DNA of 64,000 bases from Ignavibacteria bacterium (GTDB lineage Bacteria > Bacteroidota > Ignavibacteria > Kapaibacteriales > Kapaibacteriaceae): NCBI GenBank assembly GCA_016191145.1, contig JACPPD010000008.1:62001-126000 (forward strand), read 5' to 3'. A program made the position numbers and the translations under genes. Below are positions 8,622 to 59,974 of the stretch, one piece after another. The notes below the pieces were generated by a model. It did no database searches. It was given only the letters and a program-made list of their open reading frames with translations, and was not told the origin of the DNA. Numbering within the stretch: the first letter of the stretch is position 1; each line of letters begins with the position of its first letter.

Positions 8622-11600
8622 ATGTCTATACACAAGTCATTTCCGATTACGGCGTGGGCTGTTGAAAATCGAACAACGATCTACGTACTCACGGCGCTGA
8701 TTCTGTTGATTGGTGCGATGGTGTACCAGCGCCTGCCAAAGGAGCAGTTCCCCGACATTGTGGTGCCAACCATCCTCGTAACAACAATCAACGCGGGAAC
8801 ATCGCCCGTCGATGTCGAGAATCTGATTACCCGTCAGATAGAAAAGCAAATCAAAGGCATTGCAGATGTAAAAAAAGTTACCAGTCAGTCGTATCAGGAC
8901 GTATCAATTATAACAGTCGAATTTTCTACCGAAATAACGCCTACAGTTGCAAAGCAGAGGGTGACGGATGCTGTAGACCGTTCGAAAGCAGATTTGCCAA
9001 GCGACATAACGAAGGGGCCTGATGTAGCGGAAGTTGACTTTTCTGAATTTCCCATCATGTTCGTCAACATTGCAGGCAATGTTGGCCTGGACAAGCTGAA
9101 GAAGTATGCCGACGAACTGCAGGACCGCATTGAGTCGATGAAGGAGATCCGAAGAGTGGATATCATCGGCTCACTCGACAAGGAGATTCGGGTAGACCTC
9201 GATCCAAACCGGATGCAGACGTTAAGCGTTTCGTTCGACGATGTTTCGAGGGCGATAGGAAGCGAGAACGTAAATATTTCCGGCGGCGAACTTGCCAGCG
9301 GCAGCATCAGAAGAAATGTGCAGATCAGCGGTGAATTTCACACGGCGCCCGAAATTGAAAGTGTGGTTGTAAAGTCGGGTAGAGGCAATACTGTTTACGT
9401 TCGCGATATCGCAAGCGTTGTTGAAACCAACAAGGAGCAGCTCACGTTTGCAAGACTTGACGGCAAGCCAGTTGTAACCCTTTCTGTGCTAAAGAAGGCC
9501 GGTGAAAACCTTATTGATGCCTCAGACAAGATTCAGAAAATGGTCGCGAAATATACTTCAGAAAAGTTGCCGGCAAACGTATCTGTGGTAATAACCAATG
9601 ATATGTCGATCTCGACGCGCACAAGCATTGCCGACCTTGTAAATTCGATTATCATCGGTTTCATTCTGGTTACACTCGTCCTGATGTTTTTCATGGGTGT
9701 CCAGAACGCCTTATTTGTGGGCATGGCAACGCCCCTTTCATCATTCCTGGCATTTATGGTATTGCCTGGAATGGATTTTACATTCAACATCGTTGTGACG
9801 TTCTCATTCCTGCTTGCAATGGGAATTATCGTTGATGATGCCATTGTTGTAATCGAAAACACGCATAGGCTTCACAAACGAGAGGGAATTGAAATCAAGA
9901 CTGCGGCAAAGTATGCTGCTGCAGAGGTGTTTGCTCCGGTTGTTGCCGGCACACTTACCACGCTGGCACCTTTCTTTCCTCTTTTGTTTTGGCCCGGTTT
10001 GGTTGGGAAGTTCATGGTGTATCTGCCATCAGTATTGATTTTTGCTCTTACAGCTTCTCTGATAGTTGCTTATGTGATCAACCCAGTGTTTGCAGTAGAT
10101 TTCATGGACAGAAAGGAACAGCCGCTAACGCGCCGTCGGCTCGTCATCGGTGGGAGCATAATTGGCTTCTTCATCGCTTTGGGTCTACTGGCGGGTTCTA
10201 CGTGGTTTGTTGTATTAATACTAATAAATGCAACATTTTACTTTGTTAACAAACTGTTAATCACACCGTATCTGATAAAACCATTTCAAAATTCCTTCTT
10301 GCCATGGTTTATGGATCGGTATCGGGCAACATTGAGGGCATTTCTTAAAGGGTGGCGGCCATACCTGGCCATTGTTGGGATGGTTGGGTTGTTTGTGTTT
10401 ACGGTTGTTTTAACTGCTCTTTTTGGAAAGCCCCCTGTGTTTTTTCCAAGCGGCGAACCAAATAACGCATACATATACATCAAGATGCCAATTGGTACCG
10501 ATGCACATGTTACCGATTCCATTACGCGAGTTGTTGAGCAGCGCGTGATGAAAATAATTGGACATAACAACCCCGACGTAACGAATGTAGTGAGTAACGT
10601 TGGCATTGGCGCTGGTGATCCGCAAAAACCTGACAGGTCTGTAACGCCTCACAAAGGCAAGGTTACAGTAACGTTTAAAGAATATTCAAAGCGGGGAGAT
10701 CCTCAAACGAGTAGGTATCTCACGATGTTCCGTCAGGCTCTGACTGATATTCCGGGAGCTGAAATTTCCGTTGAGAAAGAAGCAAATGGACCACCACAGG
10801 AGAAAGACGTCAATGTCGAAATCTCTGGTGATGATTTCGATACGTTGTCGGCACTATCGGAGAGGATCAGAACACTGATCGTCGACTCTCTTGAGATCCC
10901 CGGCATCGAACGGCTCAAATCGGATCTGGAGCGAAACAAACCCGAGATTGCCGTGATTGTTGACAGGGAAAAAGCTAACCAGGAGGGAATATCAACATCG
11001 CAAATTGGGATGGCGTTTCGTAACGCTTTATACGGCAGCGAAGCTACCAAGGTGAGAGTGGGTGAAGATGAATATCCAGTTCAAATCCGCGTTGCTGAAA
11101 ACACGCGATCAAATATCGATGCCATTCTTAACCTTCCAATCACGTTCAGGGAGATGAGCTCCGGGCAATTCAGACAGATCCCTGTTGCTTCTGTTGCCCG
11201 CATAGAATACGTTAATTCGTTCTCTGGCATTAACAGAAAAAATATGAAACGAGTAGTCACACTGTCATCCAATGTGCTAAAGGAGCAGGGCTACAATCCA
11301 ACAACCGTAAATAGCCAGATAGTGCAGGCGTTAGATGGGATAGCAATTCCTGGCGGGTACGATGTGCGTTTAACTGGCGCACAGGAACAGCAGCAGGAAT
11401 CGGCAGACTTTCTTGCAATGGCTTTTTTAATTGCCGCCGGCATCATCCTTCTCATCATGGTCACACAATTCAACTCAGTCTTCAAACCGCTGCTGATTAT
11501 GACGACTGTGGGATTCAGCATCATCGGAGTCCTGCTGGGATTTGTGATCTTTCAAATGCAGTTTTCAATCGTCATCACAGGAGTGGGAATTGTTGCACTA

Positions 11601-49958: not shown

Positions 49959-50306
49959 ATGAAACTTATCCTTATGAGCTCCCTCCAGGCGCTGCTTGGT
50001 GTAGGGGGCATGGCTATGCTGACGAATGCCCTTGGCGGTAAGGCAACCTCTGCAATGCAGATAGTGTATGCGCTGGCATCGCCCTTCGGTATTGCAGGCA
50101 TCGCACTGATGCTTACTGCCGGAGTTGTGATGTTCATAATATTTACCTATGCAAAGCTGTCGGCATTCGTTCCCATAAGCACTGCCGCCGCTTTCTTATT
50201 CACTGTGCTTGTGTCCGTCCTGTACCAAGGCGAAAAACTTTCCCTCTCTCTGGTACTCGGAATGGCCATGATCCTCGGAGGCATTGTTGTTGTCTCCAAA
50301 TCCTAG
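49959..50306 (+). CDS. Small four-helix membrane protein, EamA/SMR-like
   Basis: 115 residues with four predicted TM helices, ending in LGMAMILGGIVVVSKS, the typical last helix of EamA/SMR-type half transporters (EmrE, ArnE/ArnF). The second TM region carries AKLSAFVPISTAAAFLFTV, like the SMR PxS/T segment. SMR-specific charged residues are not evident (no Glu in TM1), so it is more like the lipid-carrier flippase half-transporters. It starts 9 nt after the DUF4175 stop. Its last 111 nt overlap, in the opposite direction, the 3' end of dnaE2. Confidence 0.7.
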   Translation: MKLILMSSLQALLGVGGMAMLTNALGGKATSAMQIVYALASPFGIAGIALMLTAGVVMFIIFTYAKLSAFVPISTAAAFLFTVLVSVLYQGEKLSLSLVLGMAMILGGIVVVSKS

Positions 50307-53300
50307 CGCCTGCGTATCCAGTCCGCCGTTCATCTGCAGGTGACCGGAGTATCCGCCTATAACATTGTTTAGTATCCGAACCTCGCGGACAACAAGTCCT
50401 CTCCAGCCCTGTCTGGCGCCATGAACGGCGCTGCCTATGCGCACAACATCGGCTTTCACAATCAGCGCTGCTTGACGCAGCTCGCGTTCATAAAGCTCGC
50501 GCTCGCGCGGCTGCACAACGCATTGCACAAAGCCTGTCTCGTCCTCTATGGTAACAAATAACACGCCATGAGCAGTAGGCGGCGACTGGCGGAGGATGAC
50601 GATTCCGGCAACGCAGATGGACAGGGGAACAGAAGGATAGGGCGACAAGGCGGGAAGAGACCACACCATTTCGATTGGACGGATTTCGAAGTCGGTAAGC
50701 ATACGCCTATACAGCGCCATTGGGTGAACGCGCGCGGCGCCGTGCGTCATGTAATCATACGCAAGACGTTCGGGAGCCTTAATTGGCGGCAATAGGGGAA
50801 TCAGGGATTCTGCGATAGCAGAAGAGCTTAAACGCTGCTGTGCATCACGCGCCGCGCTGCTGCCCGCATTGGTGAGCTTGTGCGAGCTGCTGCTGAGCAG
50901 AGAGACTATCCACAATGCACGGCGGGCATTGCCTTCCAGAGAATCGAGCGCTCCGGAAAGCGCTATTGAGTCGTACACATCTGCAGGGAGGCGCAAGCGG
51001 GCAACAACATCTTCGGCAGACTCAAACGTACGGGCTGCCCGCTCCCAGACAATCATCCGCGCCATATCTTCGGTTACTAATTTTATTGATGTTAATGGTT
51101 TTTGTATACCAATTCGCTGCGTCGAAGAGCTGCCCTTACCCGCCGATGCATTGTGGGCATGTTCTGCAGCCGAGAGCGAATATCGTGTGCCAGACAGATT
51201 AATATCGGGCGGCAATACAGGCACTCCAAAGCGCTTGGCTTCCTCTTCGAGCGTCATCAGGTTGTACATGCCCGGACGGTGCTGCATAAATGCGGCCATG
51301 TAGGCTGCAGGATAGTAGCGTTTGAGCCACGCACTCTGATAAACAATTTTAGCAAATGCGGCGGCATGAGAACGGCAGAAACCATAGCCGACAAAGTGCG
51401 ACACCTTCTCGTAAACAAGTTCGGCACTGGCTTTATCTACACCACGCTGCATAGCCCCCTTCACAAATTTTTCGTGCATGACTTCCATTGCCTTGGCATC
51501 ACGGTTTTTCGATATCAATGCACGAAAGTCGTCGGCTTCGTCGAGCGGCATGCCGGCAAAGTGGTGTGCAATGTCGAGCACCTGTTCCTGAAAGAGCACA
51601 ATTCCCAGTGTGTCATTGAGCAGCGGTTCAAGGTCGGAATGGATATAGCGGACGGGTTCCTGGCCCCTGCGCCTGCGGATGTATGGGTTCACCATGCCCC
51701 CTTGCAGCGGACCTGGCCGGAAGAGGGCAACTTCGGTAACAAGATCGTCGAACGTTTCTGGCTGATGCTGTGCCAGCAAATGCATCTGCCCCTGACTCTC
51801 TATCTGAAACACTCCGAGTGTTTGCCCGCTCCGGATTAGCTCGTACACTGCGGAGTCGTCGAGCGATTCAAATTTATCCCACTCTGCCTCTGTATCTCTG
51901 TATTCATCTGTTCCTGTGCGCTCAATCAGTTCCAGCGCTTCGCTGATGCATGCAAGCATGCGCAGGCCAAGCACATCGAATTTTACTAGCCCCATTGCTT
52001 CAACATCGTCCTTATCGAACTGCACAACCGACACGCCATTGGCTGAGCGCTGTACAGGCGTGAAGTAGGTAAGGGGCTTGGACGAGAGAATCATGCCGCC
52101 ACTATGCTGCCCCAGGTGACGCGGATGATCGAGCAGCTTTTCTACTACCCTCAGCAGCACATCGAGTAAGGGTACATGTGTATGCTTTGCCGGGTTCCTG
52201 CCGATCTGCGTTGTTCCGAGAGCTTCGCGCAGATTGTCGGCAAATTCAGCTATGTCTTTGTTTGTAAAGCTCGGTACGGATTTCGACAATTTATTTACAA
52301 CGTCCATCGGCCAGCCTAATGCCTTGGCTGCATCGCGCACAGCCATGCGCGCGCGGTACATGATGAGCGTAGCCGTCATGGCAGTCTGCTCCTGTCCGAA
52401 ACGCTGCTCCATCCAGGCAATGATTTCGTGCCGCCTGTCGGAGTCAAAATCTACGTCGATGTCTGGAGTACCCTTGCGTCCCCTATGCAAAAACCGTTCA
52501 AACAATAGATTATGTCGGATAGGGCAGACACCTGTAATGTCAAGCAGATACGCCACTATCGAATTTGCTGCCGAACCTCTTCCCGAGCAACGAATGCCGC
52601 GGCGGCGTGCTTCATCAACAATTTCTTTCACTACAAGGAAGAAGTCGGCAAGCTTCAGGTCGCAGATTACTTCGAGTTCGTGCTTCAGCAGCTCTTCGGC
52701 TTTCTGTTGGTTTCTATATTTCCGTACTAAAGCCGACGCACAGAGTTCACGGAGGAGATGTTCCGGCGTAGTGGTATCGGGCACTCGTGCACATGGAGGC
52801 GTAACATGTCCGGGGAGAATGTCAAATTCCTCGCAGTCGTCAATCATCGTGTGGGTAAATGCGAACGCCTCCGGGTAGGGCAGCAGACTGCGTAATTCCT
52901 CTTCCGATTTTAGGCACTCTTCATCGTTTACAGGACGTTCCGGATGAGGATCGAAAATTGTGATGCCAAGCCGAGTACACGTCATCACATCATAAGCCAT
53001 GTACTCGTCCTGTCGGGCATAGTTGATGAAGGGGGCAATGCAGACGGGCAGACTTTTCATCTTTGCCAGGCGCACCATGCGGTCTGCTGCCAGACCCTGA
53101 CCAGGTTTGCGCGAATGAAGGACTGCGAGAACAACAACGCGGCGCAGCGAGAGGTTGGCGGGTATTTCGAGGCCTTGTTCTCCAACTGTCAGCACATAAC
53201 AATCCTCCAGATCTCTGAGAGGTTCAGCAGTTTCAAAGGCGGGCTGTTCGAGCGAGTGGAGGTTGGTTAGGAGGCGGTTCATCGATGCGTATCCAGAGCG

Positions 53301-53528
53301 GCTGCGTGCTACAATGCGCGTTGGCATGCCCCCTACCATCACTGTGCAGCCAATAAGGGGTTTGAGTCCGCGGGCACGGCATGCGCGCTGGTGGCGGACG
53401 GCGCCATAAACGCCATTAACATCAACCAGACACAGAGCTTTCAGGCCGAGCTCGGCGGCTCGGCTGGCAAGCTCTTCGGGCGACGAGGGAGAGCGCAGGA
53501 AGCTAAAATGAGAGCTGCAGAAAATCAA
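50196..53528 (-). CDS. dnaE2: Error-prone DNA polymerase III alpha subunit DnaE2 (ImuC)
   Basis: C-family polymerase of the SOS mutasome, 1110 residues. The PHP domain (about 1-240) is present but degenerate at the start (FCSSHFSFLR, LVDVNGVYG instead of HxH and DHDG). The palm carries GRGSAANSIVAYLLD and PDIDVDFDSDRR (about 335-375) with the catalytic aspartates. HTHVPLLDVLLR, GLVKFDVLGL, QIESQGQMHLL and YGFCRSHAAAFA are typical DnaE/DnaE2 motifs, and an OB domain lies near 990. No epsilon- or beta-binding tail like that of DnaE1 is seen. The start is TTG, overlapping the DUF6504 stop (TTGA). It is the last gene of the lexA-imuB-DUF6504-dnaE2 operon. Confidence 0.9.
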   Translation of the reverse strand: MIFCSSHFSFLRSPSSPEELASRAAELGLKALCLVDVNGVYGAVRHQRACRARGLKPLIGCTVMVGGMPTRIVARSRSGYASMNRLLTNLHSLEQPAFETAEPLRDLEDCYVLTVGEQGLEIPANLSLRRVVVLAVLHSRKPGQGLAADRMVRLAKMKSLPVCIAPFINYARQDEYMAYDVMTCTRLGITIFDPHPERPVNDEECLKSEEELRSLLPYPEAFAFTHTMIDDCEEFDILPGHVTPPCARVPDTTTPEHLLRELCASALVRKYRNQQKAEELLKHELEVICDLKLADFFLVVKEIVDEARRRGIRCSGRGSAANSIVAYLLDITGVCPIRHNLLFERFLHRGRKGTPDIDVDFDSDRRHEIIAWMEQRFGQEQTAMTATLIMYRARMAVRDAAKALGWPMDVVNKLSKSVPSFTNKDIAEFADNLREALGTTQIGRNPAKHTHVPLLDVLLRVVEKLLDHPRHLGQHSGGMILSSKPLTYFTPVQRSANGVSVVQFDKDDVEAMGLVKFDVLGLRMLACISEALELIERTGTDEYRDTEAEWDKFESLDDSAVYELIRSGQTLGVFQIESQGQMHLLAQHQPETFDDLVTEVALFRPGPLQGGMVNPYIRRRRGQEPVRYIHSDLEPLLNDTLGIVLFQEQVLDIAHHFAGMPLDEADDFRALISKNRDAKAMEVMHEKFVKGAMQRGVDKASAELVYEKVSHFVGYGFCRSHAAAFAKIVYQSAWLKRYYPAAYMAAFMQHRPGMYNLMTLEEEAKRFGVPVLPPDINLSGTRYSLSAAEHAHNASAGKGSSSTQRIGIQKPLTSIKLVTEDMARMIVWERAARTFESAEDVVARLRLPADVYDSIALSGALDSLEGNARRALWIVSLLSSSSHKLTNAGSSAARDAQQRLSSSAIAESLIPLLPPIKAPERLAYDYMTHGAARVHPMALYRRMLTDFEIRPIEMVWSLPALSPYPSVPLSICVAGIVILRQSPPTAHGVLFVTIEDETGFVQCVVQPRERELYERELRQAALIVKADVVRIGSAVHGARQGWRGLVVREVRILNNVIGGYSGHLQMNGGLDTQALGFGDNNNASEDHGHSEYQREGKFFALVQDGHKHSE

Positions 53529-53780: not shown

Positions 53781-54989
53781 CTATCCTGCCTCGCGCCACT
53801 GTCCGATAATTGCAAATCTATCGGGCGTATACGCCCACGGATCTACAACATCGATACGCTTTGTAGCTCCGGGGAATCGCTTAACCATGGCGCCTTGCAG
53901 AGCCGACGCTGCCTGGGCAAGAGTCTCTCTGTAGCCTCTTCCCATCAGTGTTTTGCTGCTTAGCGAAAGCTGGTGGGGAACGGGCCGGCTGAGCGACGCC
54001 AGCTTAAGGTGGACGCCCCACGACGATACGCCACGCAGTGCCAGGCCCTCGAGCATAGCCTGCACCTGTGTTGCAATGAAGCGTGCATCGCTGGTTGGCG
54101 CTCTCAGGATCCGCGATGCAGTCTTCATCGGCACGTCTGCCTTATCCAGCAGCGACACATCTATCCTCGATGTTTTCCACGGCACGCGCAGCAGCTCCTT
54201 TGTTACCTTATTGCACAACCCTCCGGCTGCCAGTGCCAGCAGTGCAGGCTCCTGAACACCGTCTGTAAAGCGCTCACGCGCTGTAATTGTTGGCGGCAGT
54301 TCATACATAGTTCTGCGCGCAGATTCCTGCCCCCTAACACCATCGGGAAGTCCCTGGCTTAGGCTGCTGAGCAAGGCATGCACGAGCACTCCGTTCTGGC
54401 CAAACTGCGCTTTTAGCTGGGCAGCCGTAAGCATGCGCAAACGTCCGACGGTGCTCAGACCAAAGAGCTCCAGCTTTTCAACCATCCTTACGTCGACGCC
54501 AAGTTCCGGAAGCTCTAGCAATGCGCCAACCGGCAGCGATTCGAGGAACGCCGCCTCTTTGCCTGCAGCAACCACAACGGGATCTGCACACGGTTCTGCA
54601 GAGAGGGCAGCCAGCAGCGACATGGTGGGCGAGGGTGCTATGCCACATCGGGCATTGAAGTGGGCCACAAGCTCGGCTGGTACACTGGGCAGCTCGGCAG
54701 TTATGCGTCTGTTATGCACAAACAAGTAGGGTGTTAGGGCAAACACGCGTTCCACGATGGCATCCCACCCAGCATCTTCCAGAGACGGCTGGCGAACCAG
54801 CAGGGGAGCATGCGGCTGGAGTTCCTGCGCCCTCTGTGCCGGCATGCCCCTGAGGGAGTGAGGGGAAACAACCGTGCCGCGCTCGTGGACAATAGGGATG
54901 GGTTGTTGGCTGTCTGCCAGCGGCCATATTCCGAGCGACTGTCCCAGAGCAATCGACGGTAAATCCGGAAATAACAACGTTCCAAACAT
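53781..54989 (-). CDS. imuB: ImuB, catalytically degenerate Y-family polymerase homologue
   Basis: 402 residues. The N-terminal strand (FGTLLFPDLPSIALG) is the ImuB version of the Y-family palm and lacks the metal-binding DxD-type residues of active Y polymerases. A helix-hairpin-helix-like region follows (DVRMVEKLELFGLSTVGRLRML, about 165-186), then the little-finger-like C-terminal half. In mutasomes ImuB is an adaptor linking the beta clamp and DnaE2. No obvious QxxLF beta-clamp motif was found by eye. The gap to the lexA-like gene is 18 nt. Confidence 0.82.
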   Translation of the reverse strand: MFGTLLFPDLPSIALGQSLGIWPLADSQQPIPIVHERGTVVSPHSLRGMPAQRAQELQPHAPLLVRQPSLEDAGWDAIVERVFALTPYLFVHNRRITAELPSVPAELVAHFNARCGIAPSPTMSLLAALSAEPCADPVVVAAGKEAAFLESLPVGALLELPELGVDVRMVEKLELFGLSTVGRLRMLTAAQLKAQFGQNGVLVHALLSSLSQGLPDGVRGQESARRTMYELPPTITARERFTDGVQEPALLALAAGGLCNKVTKELLRVPWKTSRIDVSLLDKADVPMKTASRILRAPTSDARFIATQVQAMLEGLALRGVSSWGVHLKLASLSRPVPHQLSLSSKTLMGRGYRETLAQAASALQGAMVKRFPGATKRIDVVDPWAYTPDRFAIIGQWREAG

Positions 54990-55007: not shown

Positions 55008-55706
55008 TTAAAAATGTTTAATACACGATCGGACTACTCCCACAATGGAGAACTCCATATCGGGCGTAATGGCAATGTCCTTATACCTGCGGTTCTCTGC
55101 GCGCAGCACGGGCGCATTGTTCTGCGTCAGGTATCGCTTTACCGTCAGCTCGCCAAACACCTTAGCAATCACTACCTGACCCGAGCGCGGCTTGACGGCG
55201 CAATCAACAATCAGCATGTCGCCATTACCTATTCCCGCATCCGTCATAGAGTCTCCCACCACGCGTATGAAGTACGTGTTATCGGGGTGCTCCAGCAGCA
55301 TCTCCGTCAGGTCTATCTCTTCCGTCACCTCATCGCCCCCTTCTGCCGGCAATCCTGCCGACACTCCCAGCGCCAGCATCGGTATCTTGGGTGCAGGGTA
55401 GGGGGCAGACTTCCGCAGTTCATCCACAGCTTGTGCAAGCAGCTCCAGTGTACTCTCAGACTTCTTTCGTTCTTGCTTTGCGGCGCTCTTCTTCTCTTTT
55501 TCCCCCACAATCATCCACGAAGCGCTGACTCCATAGTTCTTTTCCAGCATCCCCATCACTTCGTGCGGCACATAGGAGCGTCCTGCTTCCCACGCATACA
55601 CCGTCACCTCTTTAACACCAACAGCCTGGGCATATTCGGCAACCGTGAGGCCCAGCACCTCTTCGCGTGCCTGCCTATGCCTGCGTCCAACATCTTTCTT
55701 GTTCAT
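55008..55706 (-). CDS. LexA-like SOS repressor: XRE helix-turn-helix plus S24 peptidase domain
   Basis: 232 residues. An XRE-type HTH (about 17-60, LTVAEYAQAVGVKEVTVYAWEAG) is followed by a linker and a UmuD/LexA-type S24 autopeptidase. The presumed cleavage site is Ala-Gly in VSAGLPAEGG (about 116), the catalytic Ser is in VVGDSMTDAGIGNGDM (about 150) and the catalytic Lys in FGELTVKRYL (about 188). Since the HTH is XRE-like rather than LexA winged-helix, it is closest to phage-CI/HdiR-like SOS repressors. It heads the imuB-DUF6504-dnaE2 operon, and two palindromes in its promoter look like its own operators. The SD is GGAGG. Confidence 0.88.
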   Translation of the reverse strand: MNKKDVGRRHRQAREEVLGLTVAEYAQAVGVKEVTVYAWEAGRSYVPHEVMGMLEKNYGVSASWMIVGEKEKKSAAKQERKKSESTLELLAQAVDELRKSAPYPAPKIPMLALGVSAGLPAEGGDEVTEEIDLTEMLLEHPDNTYFIRVVGDSMTDAGIGNGDMLIVDCAVKPRSGQVVIAKVFGELTVKRYLTQNNAPVLRAENRRYKDIAITPDMEFSIVGVVRSCIKHF

Positions 55707-55720
55707 AGCGACCTCCGAAG

Positions 55721-55735
55721 TCTACAAATTGTAGA
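55721..55735. promoter_or_regulatory. Operator 1 of the LexA-like repressor
   Basis: A perfect 15-bp palindrome TCTACAAATTGTAGA, predicted to cover the transcription start of the lexA-imuB operon. It is 15 nt from the repressor ATG and 20 bp centre-to-centre from operator 2. That the repressor binds here is inference from position and symmetry. Confidence 0.7.
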
Positions 55736-55738
55736 GGC

Positions 55739-55767
55739 AATCTACGAATCGTAGAACAAGAAGTCAA
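55739..55767 (-). promoter_or_regulatory. Sigma70-like promoter of the mutasome operon
   Basis: On the minus strand, TTGACT (55767-55762), a 17-nt spacer and TAGATT (55744-55739). The spacer and -10 coincide with operator 2. This is unlike the TTG/TAnnTTTG promoters elsewhere in the window. Confidence 0.6.
55741..55755. promoter_or_regulatory. Operator 2 of the LexA-like repressor
   Basis: A perfect 15-bp palindrome TCTACGAATCGTAGA, differing from operator 1 only at the inner positions (consensus TCTACrAATyGTAGA). It lies inside the promoter spacer, overlapping the -10, ideally placed for repression. Confidence 0.7.
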
Positions 55768-55788: not shown

Positions 55789-55820
55789 CAATGCCGGGTA
55801 TCTCTTGATACCCGGCATTG
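55789..55820. repeat. Palindromic repeat copy C
   Basis: The same palindrome as at 46279 and 46331: a 14-bp stem with arms beginning CAATGCCGGGTATC and a TCTT loop. On the minus strand it is followed by TTGTTTTTG, so it may terminate minus-strand transcripts from the small-gene cluster upstream before they enter the lexA operon. It is 9.5 kb from the other copies, which marks this as a dispersed repeat. Confidence 0.8.
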
Positions 55821-55860: not shown

Positions 55861-55897
55861 AAAAACGAATACGCCCGGGCCGTGAGGACCCGGGCGC
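55861..55897 (-). terminator. GC-rich hairpin, possible terminator of the small-gene cluster
   Basis: An 8-bp stem CGCCCGGG/CCCGGGCG (55872-55879 with 55889-55896) and a 9-nt loop. On the minus strand it is followed after 5 nt by TTTTT. It is 110 nt downstream of the 118-residue gene. A second, longer imperfect inverted repeat (CACGTCGAC with GTCGACGCGACGTG, 55911-55954) lies between, so the 300-nt gap holds structured sequence but no gene. Confidence 0.45.
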
Positions 55898-56008
55898 AAT
55901 CGCTATTGTTCACGTCGACCGTGAGAGTGGGTGGGGTGCAGTCGACGCGACGTGCCTTTACCGTGATTCTGATGAAAGACGAAATCGCGGGTAAGACACT
56001 ACTTTAAT

Positions 56009-56365
56009 TTATACAGCATGGGCATAAGCAGGAACAGCGTTGGATGTAAATCCGCAACTGCGTTCAAGTAGGGTGATGACGTCTGAACGCCGGGCTCTTT
56101 CAGCCTTTGGCATCAGGAAAACATCGAACCTTACATTATCGAGACTGCCGGCAGCGGAGACCCAAGAGCCAAACCGCTCATCAGATGTCAACTGACTAGT
56201 ACTAGGGATTGAATCACAGTCAAAAGCGTCAAGTACCCTATACTGGCCATTTTCGTCACCTACCAGTACTCCAACCACACCAGCTACATTGTAGGACTTC
56301 CAGTCCTCAAGCCGTGTTGGCGTGATAAAGTGCATGCAATTCGTTACGGGCAGTGTTTGTAACAT
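56009..56365 (-). CDS. Hypothetical protein (118 aa) of the small-gene cluster
   Basis: 118 residues, no signal peptide or TM, soluble alpha/beta composition (VAGVVGVLVGDENGQYRVLD, FGSWVSAAGS, VRFDVFLMPKAERARRSD then a helix VITLLERSCGF). I do not recognise the family. The strand-strand-helix order faintly recalls a degenerate GIY-YIG fold, but the catalytic residues are not there. It is the last of three small minus-strand genes, 50 nt downstream of the repeat peptide, with a hairpin after it. An ATG ten codons in (MHFITPTRLEDW) is an alternative start. Confidence 0.55.
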   Translation of the reverse strand: MLQTLPVTNCMHFITPTRLEDWKSYNVAGVVGVLVGDENGQYRVLDAFDCDSIPSTSQLTSDERFGSWVSAAGSLDNVRFDVFLMPKAERARRSDVITLLERSCGFTSNAVPAYAHAV

Positions 56366-56415
56366 TTTACTATTCTCCGTTGCTTGTTATGTTGTTGTGC
56401 AGCGTGAAATTGAGC

Positions 56416-56547
56416 CTAGTTCTCTTCGCCGCGGTCAATGATGTACCCATCATTTCGGTTACCTTCGCCGCGATCAATGATAAAAAGCGATTCACGGTTG
56501 TTTTCACCACGGTCGATGATAAGAGTCGACGGAAAGTGCGCAGTCAT
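56416..56547 (-). CDS. Small repeat peptide, three 13-residue IIDRGE repeats (43 aa)
   Basis: Read directly from the sequence: ATG at 56547 preceded by TGGAG at a good SD distance, TAG at 56416-56418. After a short lead (MTAHFPS) it consists of three 13-residue repeats: TLIIDRGENNRES, LFIIDRGEGNRND and GYIIDRGEEN. The repeats are also visible in the DNA as a 39-nt period (TTCGCCGCGGTCAATGAT type), with silent differences between copies, as expected if the protein sequence is maintained. There is no TM or secretion signal. I know no family; it could be a precursor peptide, a binding-partner scaffold or a repeat antigen-like protein. Confidence 0.6.
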   Translation of the reverse strand: MTAHFPSTLIIDRGENNRESLFIIDRGEGNRNDGYIIDRGEEN

Positions 56548-56635
56548 GACTAACTCCATTTATTTTCAATTGTTTAGGAAAGCTTTGGAAAGATGTCGCC
56601 AGGCAGTAAAGCAGAAAAGATCTGTAAAGAAGGAA

Positions 56636-56821
56636 TTAGTCTTCCAAACGATCGATCGCTACAGGAGTAATTACCTGCATAAGTACCGGATCCTGCAGAG
56701 TTGTATTAATCAGTTGTTGATTAGAGTTTACCAGGAATTGTTGATCGGCATTAGTCAGTGTGGCCGTGCTATTTGGTGTAACCATTCCGAAGTAAATCAA
56801 GATTGCGATGAAGAGTTCCAT
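56636..56821 (-). CDS. Small membrane-anchored or exported peptide (61 aa)
   Basis: 61 residues from the ATG at 56821, with AGGA upstream (AAGGATCACAGTC). Residues 3-15 (LFIAILIYFGMVT) are hydrophobic like a TM anchor or short signal. The remainder is Asn/Gln/Thr-rich and ends acidic (AIDRLED). It is the first of three minus-strand small genes and is divergent from the 513-residue gene with a 195-nt gap. That gap shows only a weak -7 box TACATTTG (56918-56925, plus strand). Function unknown. Confidence 0.5.
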   Translation of the reverse strand: MELFIAILIYFGMVTPNSTATLTNADQQFLVNSNQQLINTTLQDPVLMQVITPVAIDRLED

Positions 56822-57016
56822 GACTGTGATCCTTGTTTGGTTGCGATAGTTGTTATTACCTGATACGAAAATCAGCGTTCAGCCAGACGTATCCCATTAC
56901 ATTTACCTGGTATTTGTTACATTTGAAATTCAGTCAACCAAATAGCAACTAGATGGATGAAAAATTCAAATGATCTAGGAAAGTCTTGAAATTGTAAAAC
57001 TTAACAGCCGCAGCGT

Positions 57017-58558
57017 ATGGAAATACTCAAAGAGATTCTTCGAATTGTTACATCAAAATCAGACATTTCAAAGGTGCTTCCTGAGCTGGATCCGGAATCA
57101 CCTGAGGAAATCCGTGGTTCACTTTCGGGAAGATTTTTGAACGGATTATCGAGTGACTCATATTTAACTGATACTGATGCCTCTAAAGATTTATATAAGA
57201 GTGACCAGACAGATCAGCGATACCGGACTTTAAAGTCAAGAACTTATGAAAGACTTCTCCACTCATTACTATTCTTGCAGGTTAAGCAACCCGAGCATTC
57301 TGAATACCTTAGCTATTACTATAAGTGTACACGTAACCTTATTTGTGCTCAATCTCTTATGAGGTTTGCCTCAAGAAAAGCCGGATTTGCAGTGTCCCAG
57401 AAAACTCTTTTAATTGCGCAGAAATATGAATTCACCGATATATGCCTGACACTGGCTGTGTTATTAAGAGAAACATCAGCATTCTGGGGACAGCGAAAGA
57501 AATTTGACTATTATGACGGACTCGGTTCTAAATACCTGAAGATTCTCGAAGCGGAATATCGTACCAATGCCCTGCTTGACAAGTATAGTCTAGAAATGAT
57601 CGCTACAAGTCGCACAAAACAATACTTGCTACAGCTTGCCGAATCTGTAAAAAATGAAATTGATGACTTAGTGAAGTTATATGGATCACATCTACTCAAA
57701 TTGAATAAGGTGCGAATAGACATTGCGGTAGCTTCTCAGCTAAACGATTTTCAGATGATTATTGAGGTTTGTGACGCAGCGATCGAATATCTTGCAGCAA
57801 ACAAACATCTTTCCCAACCTGCTCGTTTGGGAGAGTTTCGGTTACGGAAAATGATATCGCAAATCAATGTTAGGCAATATCATGCGGCCTTTCAATCAGC
57901 TGATACTGTTGTTGATTCCTTTCAAGAAGCTGGGAATAATTGGTTTATTGCCCTGTATTATGCAACCTGTGCTGCATTTTTATCTGAAAATTATTCAAGA
58001 GCAGATTATTATATATCAACAGCAACAAGGCACAAAAGGTTTTCACTTGCTGACGAATCAACGCGTGAAAGCCGTGTGATTTTTGGAGCTTATGCTCATT
58101 TAGCAGAGCTGTTGGGATTGTACATCCCTGAACCACAATATTCTAATAGATCATTTAGACTTAGTACATATTTGAATAGTATTCCTTTAGAATCAAAAAT
58201 TAAAAAAATATCTAATATTTTAATTCTCTTATCACATGTGGCCTTTCTGATACTCGAAGGTAATTTTGATTTGGTCGAGAAACGACTTGAGTATTTACGT
58301 GTATATATTTCAAGATATTTAACAGAAAAACAGTTCAGTCGTGTAAGATTGTTCGTGAAGTTACTCCAGACATTTCCCAAACACAGCTTTATTGCAAAGG
58401 ATATACGAAAGGCAAACCATGAATTATATGAACTTCTTTTACTATCGAAAACCGATAACATAACAACAGAGATCATCGAATACATTCAATACGAAATATT
58501 ATACGAATCACTTCTGATCTTCTTAGAGAAGCATGCGGCAGCGATAAAGGTGGATTAG
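57017..58558 (+). CDS. Hypothetical, probably all-helical repeat protein (513 aa)
   Basis: 513 residues with no signal peptide or TM. It is almost entirely predicted amphipathic helices, with TPR-like pairs in the centre (about 230-360: IIEVCDAAIEYLAANKHL, QYHAAFQSADTVVDSFQEAG, WFIALYYATCAAFLSENYSRADYY). A charged N-terminus and a Leu-rich C-terminal helix bundle (IIEYIQYEILYESLLIFLEKHA) flank them. There is no HTH, nuclease or ATPase motif. It is richer in AT than the core genes around it, which fits an acquired gene. The divergent arrangement with three small genes suggests a functional link, such as a peptide receptor or scaffold, but this is unproven. Confidence 0.6.
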   Translation: MEILKEILRIVTSKSDISKVLPELDPESPEEIRGSLSGRFLNGLSSDSYLTDTDASKDLYKSDQTDQRYRTLKSRTYERLLHSLLFLQVKQPEHSEYLSYYYKCTRNLICAQSLMRFASRKAGFAVSQKTLLIAQKYEFTDICLTLAVLLRETSAFWGQRKKFDYYDGLGSKYLKILEAEYRTNALLDKYSLEMIATSRTKQYLLQLAESVKNEIDDLVKLYGSHLLKLNKVRIDIAVASQLNDFQMIIEVCDAAIEYLAANKHLSQPARLGEFRLRKMISQINVRQYHAAFQSADTVVDSFQEAGNNWFIALYYATCAAFLSENYSRADYYISTATRHKRFSLADESTRESRVIFGAYAHLAELLGLYIPEPQYSNRSFRLSTYLNSIPLESKIKKISNILILLSHVAFLILEGNFDLVEKRLEYLRVYISRYLTEKQFSRVRLFVKLLQTFPKHSFIAKDIRKANHELYELLLLSKTDNITTEIIEYIQYEILYESLLIFLEKHAAAIKVD

Positions 58559-59016: not shown

Positions 59017-59974
59017 GTCCGTTTTTGCGTTAAAATTCTCGAAGGCTTTGATTCTAAATGTTGTTTGAATCGTTGTTGATTGATTTCGTTTTGAATCGCC
59101 ATCTGCAATCCAGGTAATTGGCGAAAATTGTGAATCTTGTTCCAGGCTGGCTCGAGTTCCATCAGCGCCAGTGCAGTCCATCGCATCCGTTGATCTGCGG
59201 TAGTCCATCGCGTGATATGACGCGTGTATCGGGCAACACCACTATTGACGCTCTCAATGATGTTTGTCGTCAGGAAGCATCGTCCGAAGGTCGCATGCAG
59301 GCCTAACCGTGCCAGCGTGAACCTGTTGTTGCCTGCGTCAGCCCAAGCGTTCTCTTTACACCGTTCTGCGTCACACCGATGGCAATGACCATGCTTTGGT
59401 TCTGCAACGCTTTGCCATCGATAAACATTGCCACATAGGTGTCATCATCCAGCCGACGCTTCAGGAACTCTTCGAGAATCTCGCTGCTGTGTTCTACAAA
59501 CTTCTCTGACAGCGATGATTTCGACAATCCCATTGATGCCATCAACGTCTCGGCAGTCTCATGGTACTTGCGTGTACCAAGACCCAGCATCAGTGCGCGT
59601 ATAATATGCACTGGTGGTTCTGCCATTTGCTGCAGTCGCGCATAGATCTCCGGCGTGTGTGTCGTCTGCGATTCGTTGTCGCGGATTCTCGGAACCTCTA
59701 CCCGCAGCTTTTGCCCACCTACCGCCACACTTCCACGGTTGATTCCCCAGCGGCTGAACCGCCCTTCGTGTGGCTTGTTGTGACTGTAGCGATCGCCGGC
59801 TCTTTCCGATGTCTCTCGCTGCATCAGCCATTCAATGGCATGTCGACTCAGCTCAAGATGGTTCAGTACTAATGCCGCTGTGTCATCACCTGTTGTTCCG
59901 GCCATCGATGAAAATGCTGCTTCCAGTTCGTTATTCTTCAGCGTATGTTTGGTACTCATAGGGGCTCTCTTCAA
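59013..59974 (-). pseudogene. IS256/mutator-type transposase, internally deleted and frameshifted
   Basis: The N-terminal part (59974 to 59303, 223 codons) contains the transposase start, RVEVPRIRDNES and the first catalytic Asp region MFIDGKALQNQSMVIAIGV, and stops soon after LGLTQATTG. The C-terminal part continues in another frame from about 59320 to a TGA at 59013: CFLTTNIIESVNSGVARYTRH, RWTALALMELEPAWNKI, FRQLPGLQMAIQ. Compared with about 400 residues for the family, roughly 100-130 residues including the second catalytic Asp region are missing, so it cannot transpose by itself. Confidence 0.85.

Follow-up and report, generated by a model that had tools for sequence, protein, structure and literature searches.

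A conserved locus of Kapabacteria encoding candidate peptide ligands and a divergent TPR protein as their putative receptor

The locus lies in the 2.47 Mb genome of a member of the Kapabacteria (Bacteroidota), whose named relatives are metagenome bins labelled Kapaibacterium and Ignavibacteria, within a stretch of 64,000 nucleotides that was analysed as a whole (the window; contig 3, 62001-126000) and whose positions are used as coordinates below. Three small genes run on the minus strand from 56821 downward. They encode peptide A (61 aa, 56636-56821), a proposed ligand precursor with the SD sequence AAGGA upstream; peptide B (43 aa, 56416-56547), a proposed multi-copy ligand preceded by GGAG; and protein C (118 aa, 56009-56365), a soluble α/β protein and putative accessory protein, likewise preceded by GGAG. 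Divergent from them on the plus strand is the gene for protein D (513 aa, 57017-58558), which is predicted to form an all-helical TPR superhelix and is the proposed peptide receptor. The 195 bp between A and D (56822-57016) presumably hold both promoters, as judged by position and conserved geometry. On the minus strand, a terminator-like hairpin with a 14-pair stem, a loop of 4 and a T-rich tail (55789-55820) ends the A-B-C unit, and a second hairpin of 12 pairs is found at 55870-55898.

An earlier, sequence-only reading of the region had reported frames of 61, 43, 118 and 513 aa, SD sequences before the 61- and 43-aa starts, and a hairpin after the cluster. All four frames are present, the SD sequences are of the GGAG/AAGGA type (the GGAG before the 118-aa start had not been listed), and the hairpin is the 14-pair terminator-like stem with its T-rich stretch. 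Pfam, NCBIfam and PADLOC returned no family above cut-off for A, B, C or D, in line with the earlier view that none belonged to a known family. Conservation and co-occurrence had been set as the test, and homologues of A, C and D keep the same arrangement in relatives. A lack of conservation, a lack of co-occurrence or a match to a known family was to count against the reading, and each of the three came out in its favour. The gene cluster is real and conserved, beyond what chance would give.

Peptide A has a hydrophobic N-terminus, MELFIAILIYFGMV, a polar middle and the C-terminal tail IDRLED (56639-56656, minus strand), a motif that is also that of the B repeats. The family profile of A gave a match of E 3e-15 in its own genome, and small ORFs divergent from distant D proteins belong to the same family. 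Among 123 genomes of the order the profile found 89 matches in 40 genomes (E about 1e-5 or better), and in a 395-genome sample of the phylum it found none beyond the class. Family members are 57-85 aa long and have a start of the type MExLxAILLYLG, an N- and Q-rich middle and a variable tail in which an hhhID motif is frequent, as in VIIDADQEY, LIIDFETEY and VVLDKTEDCDN; the close homologues all end in IDRxED (IDRAED, IDRTED, IDRRED or IDRLED). The sequence-only reading had centred on the 43-aa peptide. Its repeats are borne out, but the widespread peptide family is that of the 61-aa A, and the C-terminal motif common to both had been missed.

The hydrophobic segment of A spans 12 residues with a mean hydropathy of 2.4, shows no obvious cleavage site and reaches transmembrane strength in 21 of 45 A proteins. 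Because the N-terminus is acidic, with K or R at positions 2-6 in just 2 of 45 pairs, it does not appear to be a canonical Sec signal peptide. Tandem arrays of A with the tail EEWTDPPPEPIMD or similar were seen at contig ends at three loci of the sister family f2 (L159, L205 and L150), and after the arrays comes a third A variant with a different tail, VEQLEVDDSAPIFD.

The 43-aa frame of B is made of three IIDRGE units spaced 13 residues apart, as the sequence-only reading had described. By translation these are unit 1, IIDRGENNRESLF (56482-56520), unit 2, IIDRGEGNRNDGY (56443-56481), and unit 3, IIDRGEEN (56419-56442), all on the minus strand, and the repeated motif takes the forms IIDRGENN, IIDRGEGN and IIDRGEEN. 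The hydrophobic leader is absent from B. Whether the repeat number varies had been raised as a check, and it does: B takes two forms in relatives. One is a separate gene of 17 aa (for example MKTTRTLPYIIDRGEEN or MLTNRQNPYSIDRGEEN), present one to four times and frequently in alternation with A genes; the other is an ORF that joins two or three units. When the 23 genomes of the family were scanned with a degenerate DNA pattern that encodes IDRGE(x)N, 10 of them gave matches, 25 sites in all, as against none in the reversed control; the sites always form a single locus per genome, beside the 513-aa homologue where the contig allows. A stricter pattern, run over the 123 genomes of the order, gave matches confined to the family of the window. 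Within seven arrays the units differ by synonymous changes only, a result of which the flanking codons are the informative part, given that the search pattern fixes IDRGE; the window's own B is the exception among multi-unit genomes, its motif flanks varying as well. As array units differ almost only synonymously, the small B frames appear to be translated and selected as peptides. At one further locus (L100 in G002, 8764-8826) a 13-aa ORF with an SD, MRLFNLLLDRRED, comes after the A gene that accompanies a D paralogue and is possibly a B-like peptide with a different tail.

Protein D had been described as helical and TPR-like, and two lines of evidence now identify the repeats as TPRs. A profile of the D family (17 homologues) matched designed consensus TPR proteins with E 1.4e-4, and AF2 modelling from seven sequences gave a superhelix made up entirely of helices (pLDDT 86.8). 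The structural ranking for this model was headed by Phr*-bound Rap of plasmid pLS20 (Z 15.4 over 277 residues, 4.4 Å) and NprR-NprX (Z 15.3), both tied with LGN, and then came RapI, RapF, RapH and AimR. Single family members fall below the Pfam cut-offs for TPR, Foldseek gave nothing below E 0.001 for D, and scans of Pfam and NCBIfam found no RRNPP family in D or its homologues. Profile and model show that D has a TPR superhelix, a common fold that by itself gives no function. The conserved N-terminal region (residues 24-98) had no match to a helix-turn-helix (HTH) domain among Pfam families or PDB sequences, and no recognised output domain, DNA-binding or enzymatic, was found in D. Matches to Snu56 and Gemini_V2 were below cut-off and absent in relatives, and were taken as chance.

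A contig search with the D sequence by itself returned nothing, and one with the D alignment returned six loci. In the order, 92 matches were found in 37 of 123 genomes, with up to 17 copies per genome (G029); further families of both the class and the phylum have D as well, across Bacteroidota, and no homologues were found on plasmids or phages.

Within 3 kb of a D gene lie 54 of the 89 A matches, and 53 of these 54 are divergent from it. The remaining 35 comprise 11 beside a divergent D protein, 12 beside a TPR-sensor histidine kinase and 12 at contig ends, such that every A match with a visible neighbour (77 of 77) adjoins a TPR protein, be it D or a divergent D (65) or the kinase (12). The most distant subgroup of divergent D proteins was linked to D by profile comparison (E 2.9e-5 over 447 columns). 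For about 40 of the 92 D matches the flanking 3 kb showed no A, in some cases owing to contig ends or missed divergent peptides. When the neighbouring ORFs of about 80 loci from nine taxonomic families were compared all against all, D and the TPR kinase were the only ones to recur broadly, and no modifying enzyme, protease or transporter recurred at the A-D loci.

The kinases beside A in family f2 are 741-829 aa long and carry TPR_12, HisKA and HATPase_c domains. In a hydropathy scan one membrane segment is N-terminal and another comes just before HisKA; the TPRs lie between the two and are therefore predicted to be periplasmic. As the A-linked kinases of several genera are mutual best matches, the A-kinase linkage represents in large part one conserved pairing rather than many independent ones. 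The pairing of the same peptide family with a periplasmic TPR-sensor kinase suggests that in f2 the peptide tail is perceived outside the cytoplasm. Beyond the reach of the A profile, three loci of a class-level outgroup (L168, L169 and L177 of G271) have proteins of 119-125 aa divergent from D with N-termini that look, by eye, like signal peptides; none of them has profile similarity to A, and one ends in the similar tail AIVIVDKDEIQ. Since the A profile stops at the class, small ORFs that neighbour D in families f36 and f40 are only suggestive as counterparts of A.

Comparisons of tandem A copies showed the last 10 residues to be identical in four of six cases, the others giving 8/10 and 5/7; for the copies of L159, 17 of 18 N-terminal residues, 19 of 50 in the middle and 10 of 10 in the tail are identical. 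The tails of A are locus-specific. Among 45 A-D pairs, the nearest relative of a given D also had the nearest A in 19, compared with a permuted mean of 1.0 and maximum of 8, most pairs being orthologues or paralogues and not independent events. The distance between D proteins correlated with the distance between tails weakly (Mantel r 0.17), and non-significantly when permuted within genomes. Given that linkage alone produces co-inheritance and that the distance correlations are weak, these data support co-inheritance of A and D as a stable pairing, with co-evolution of an interface not proven.

On this evidence we propose that the locus is probably a peptide-ligand/TPR-receptor pair, with A and B as precursors and D as receptor. 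In such a model A would be the ligand precursor. Its hydrophobic N-terminal segment would act as a leader or anchor it in the membrane, and the ligand that bears the specificity would be the C-terminal tail (of the hhhID-x-x-E-x type, here VAIDRLED), of which B would supply additional leaderless copies. The groove of the TPR superhelix of D would hold the tail, and binding would alter the activity of a partner, C perhaps having an accessory role. We infer that the peptides are exported and matured and then signal from cell to cell, and in f2 the same peptide family would be read by the periplasmic TPR-sensor histidine kinase. Export looks to be the weakest link of the model, because the N-terminus of A is acidic and B is leaderless. 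It is favoured by the predicted periplasmic location of the f2 TPRs and by the N-termini of the outgroup small proteins beside D, which resemble signal peptides. It is not obvious how a single export route could supply both sensors, as D reads as cytoplasmic and the f2 kinase as periplasmic.

An alternative without release would make A a small membrane-bound regulator whose tail docks a TPR protein and tethers it within the cell or at the envelope. MgrB and SafA, for example, are small membrane proteins that act on sensor kinases; the partner of A in f2 is a membrane kinase, and the hydrophobic N-terminus of A without an obvious cleavage site would suit an anchor. However, fewer than half of the A proteins reach transmembrane strength, B has no membrane segment and yet keeps and multiplies the tail, and the outgroup partners of D begin with signal-peptide-like N-termini, and we consider such a tether unlikely. 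The sequence-only reading had wavered between a peptide-receptor pair and a RiPP precursor. Its receptor half is well supported by the comparative evidence of co-occurrence, TPR fold, co-inheritance and the switch to a kinase, whereas the RiPP half, with A and B as leader-core precursors of a modified natural product, finds no support, as neither a maturase nor a transporter recurs at the loci. The conserved N-terminus and variable C-terminus of A, the repeated cores and the tandem precursor genes do resemble RiPP loci, but a protease does not recur either, the tails are not the usual Cys/Ser/Thr-rich cores, B is leaderless and what accompanies A is a TPR protein or kinase and not an enzyme, which together leave a RiPP very improbable. 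Just as little weight attaches to a toxin-antitoxin or conflict module in which D neutralises toxic A and B peptides: a larger protein does adjoin a small hydrophobic peptide and the distribution is patchy, but A and D are divergent and not co-transcribed, some D genes lack an A and some A genes have a kinase in the place of D, PADLOC gave no match, and D homologues are absent from plasmids and phages.

The ligand-receptor pair that we favour can be set against known systems. A survey restricted to Firmicutes (PMC10075063) gives five criteria for RRNPP systems: a propeptide of 10-100 aa, secretion by Sec or PptAB (SHPs) with maturation, a receptor of 250-500 aa, TPRs and adjacency. Here the peptide and receptor genes are directly adjacent, A (61 aa) and B (43 aa; 17 aa in homologues) lie within the propeptide range, and D, at 513 aa in a family of about 475-600 aa, is marginally outside the receptor range. 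In RRNPPA systems, receptors without a peptide have been termed 'eavesdroppers' and those with several precursors or repeats 'chatterers' (PMC9765709), and D copies that lack a peptide gene, like receptors with more than one peptide gene or repeat, follow these patterns. As in Rap-Phr, NprR-NprX and AimR-AimP, a small peptide gene adjoins a TPR receptor and the proposed peptide is C-terminal and locus-specific; like Rap of Bacillus, D has no recognised DNA-binding domain, and Rap and NprR are among its closest solved folds. In contrast to RRNPP systems, the host is a Gram-negative member of Bacteroidota, the gene order is divergent, the receptor has no sequence match to theirs, and the A peptides form an unrelated family with an acidic N-terminus and no canonical signal peptide that also pairs with a histidine kinase. 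Our best reading, by analogy, is that A/B-D works like Rap-Phr and other RRNPP pairs; we refrain from assigning it to that group, given the different phylum, the receptor of 513 aa, the lack of a sequence relationship and the unproven export.

Other peptide systems share single features with the locus. The peptide two-component systems of Bacillota, ComX-ComP and Agr, resemble the f2 arrangement, where a membrane sensor kinase lies next to the peptide gene, but the f2 sensor is a predicted periplasmic TPR array, the loci showed no modification enzyme like ComQ or AgrB, and across the order A is usually paired with a soluble TPR protein. Rgg-SHP likewise has a short hydrophobic precursor without a Sec signal whose peptide is read by a TPR receptor; the hydrophobic residues of SHPs, however, are in the mature C-terminal part and those of A are N-terminal, and D has no HTH.

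Peptide signalling through TPR receptors is confined to Bacillota in the surveys (PMC10075063, Firmicutes only; PMC9765709), and we found no published description of such a system in Kapabacteria or Bacteroidetes in the open-access PMC literature. A wider and more tentative proposal, somewhat short of an even chance in our judgement, is that Kapabacteria and other Bacteroidota may own an independently evolved peptide-pheromone language, with soluble TPR receptors and, in f2, periplasmic kinases. Such a language would comprise a single diversified peptide family with locus-specific tails and as many as 17 receptors in one genome, the majority of them paired with a peptide of their own. If true, TPR-receptor peptide signalling arose or spread outside Bacillota, into a Gram-negative phylum rich in uncultured members, and would there be a general, peptide-based form of cell-to-cell signalling. 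The use of one peptide family on a soluble TPR receptor versus a TPR-sensor kinase would offer a handle on receptor wiring. TPR-sensor kinases are abundant in these genomes, and for at least one group of them the system would also suggest a candidate ligand.

Homologues of protein C were found only in genomes of the same family that have A and B, and adjoin A/B or D where the contig allows. Its model has a pLDDT of 64 and its best fold match, to the UvrC GIY-YIG domain, is weak (Z 4.0 over 71 residues); no GIY..YIG motif was seen in C by eye, and the idea of an enzyme was set aside, the resemblance being too weak. One genome has two C genes (G008, L090 1758-2996), one of them without the otherwise conserved N-terminal Cys-x-His.

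Three minus-strand genes beside the cluster encode a LexA-like regulator with HTH and peptidase-S24 domains (55008-55706), an ImuB-like protein (53781-54989) and a DnaE2-like polymerase (50196-53528). Counting the genome of the window, five genomes of the family have the S24 regulator and the ImuB-like gene next to the D-A locus; the other four are G017, G007, G003 and G004, and DnaE2 was seen there in the last three. This neighbourhood is a possible output of D, and only a lead. Just upstream of the S24 gene (55721-55755) are two near-perfect palindromes of 15 bp, TCTACAAATTGTAGA and TCTACGAATCGTAGA, 5 bp apart, which have no further close copy within the window and are likely to be the operator of the S24 regulator. 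Downstream of D, a truncated Mutator-family transposase (59303-59974, minus strand) suggests the remnant of an insertion sequence.
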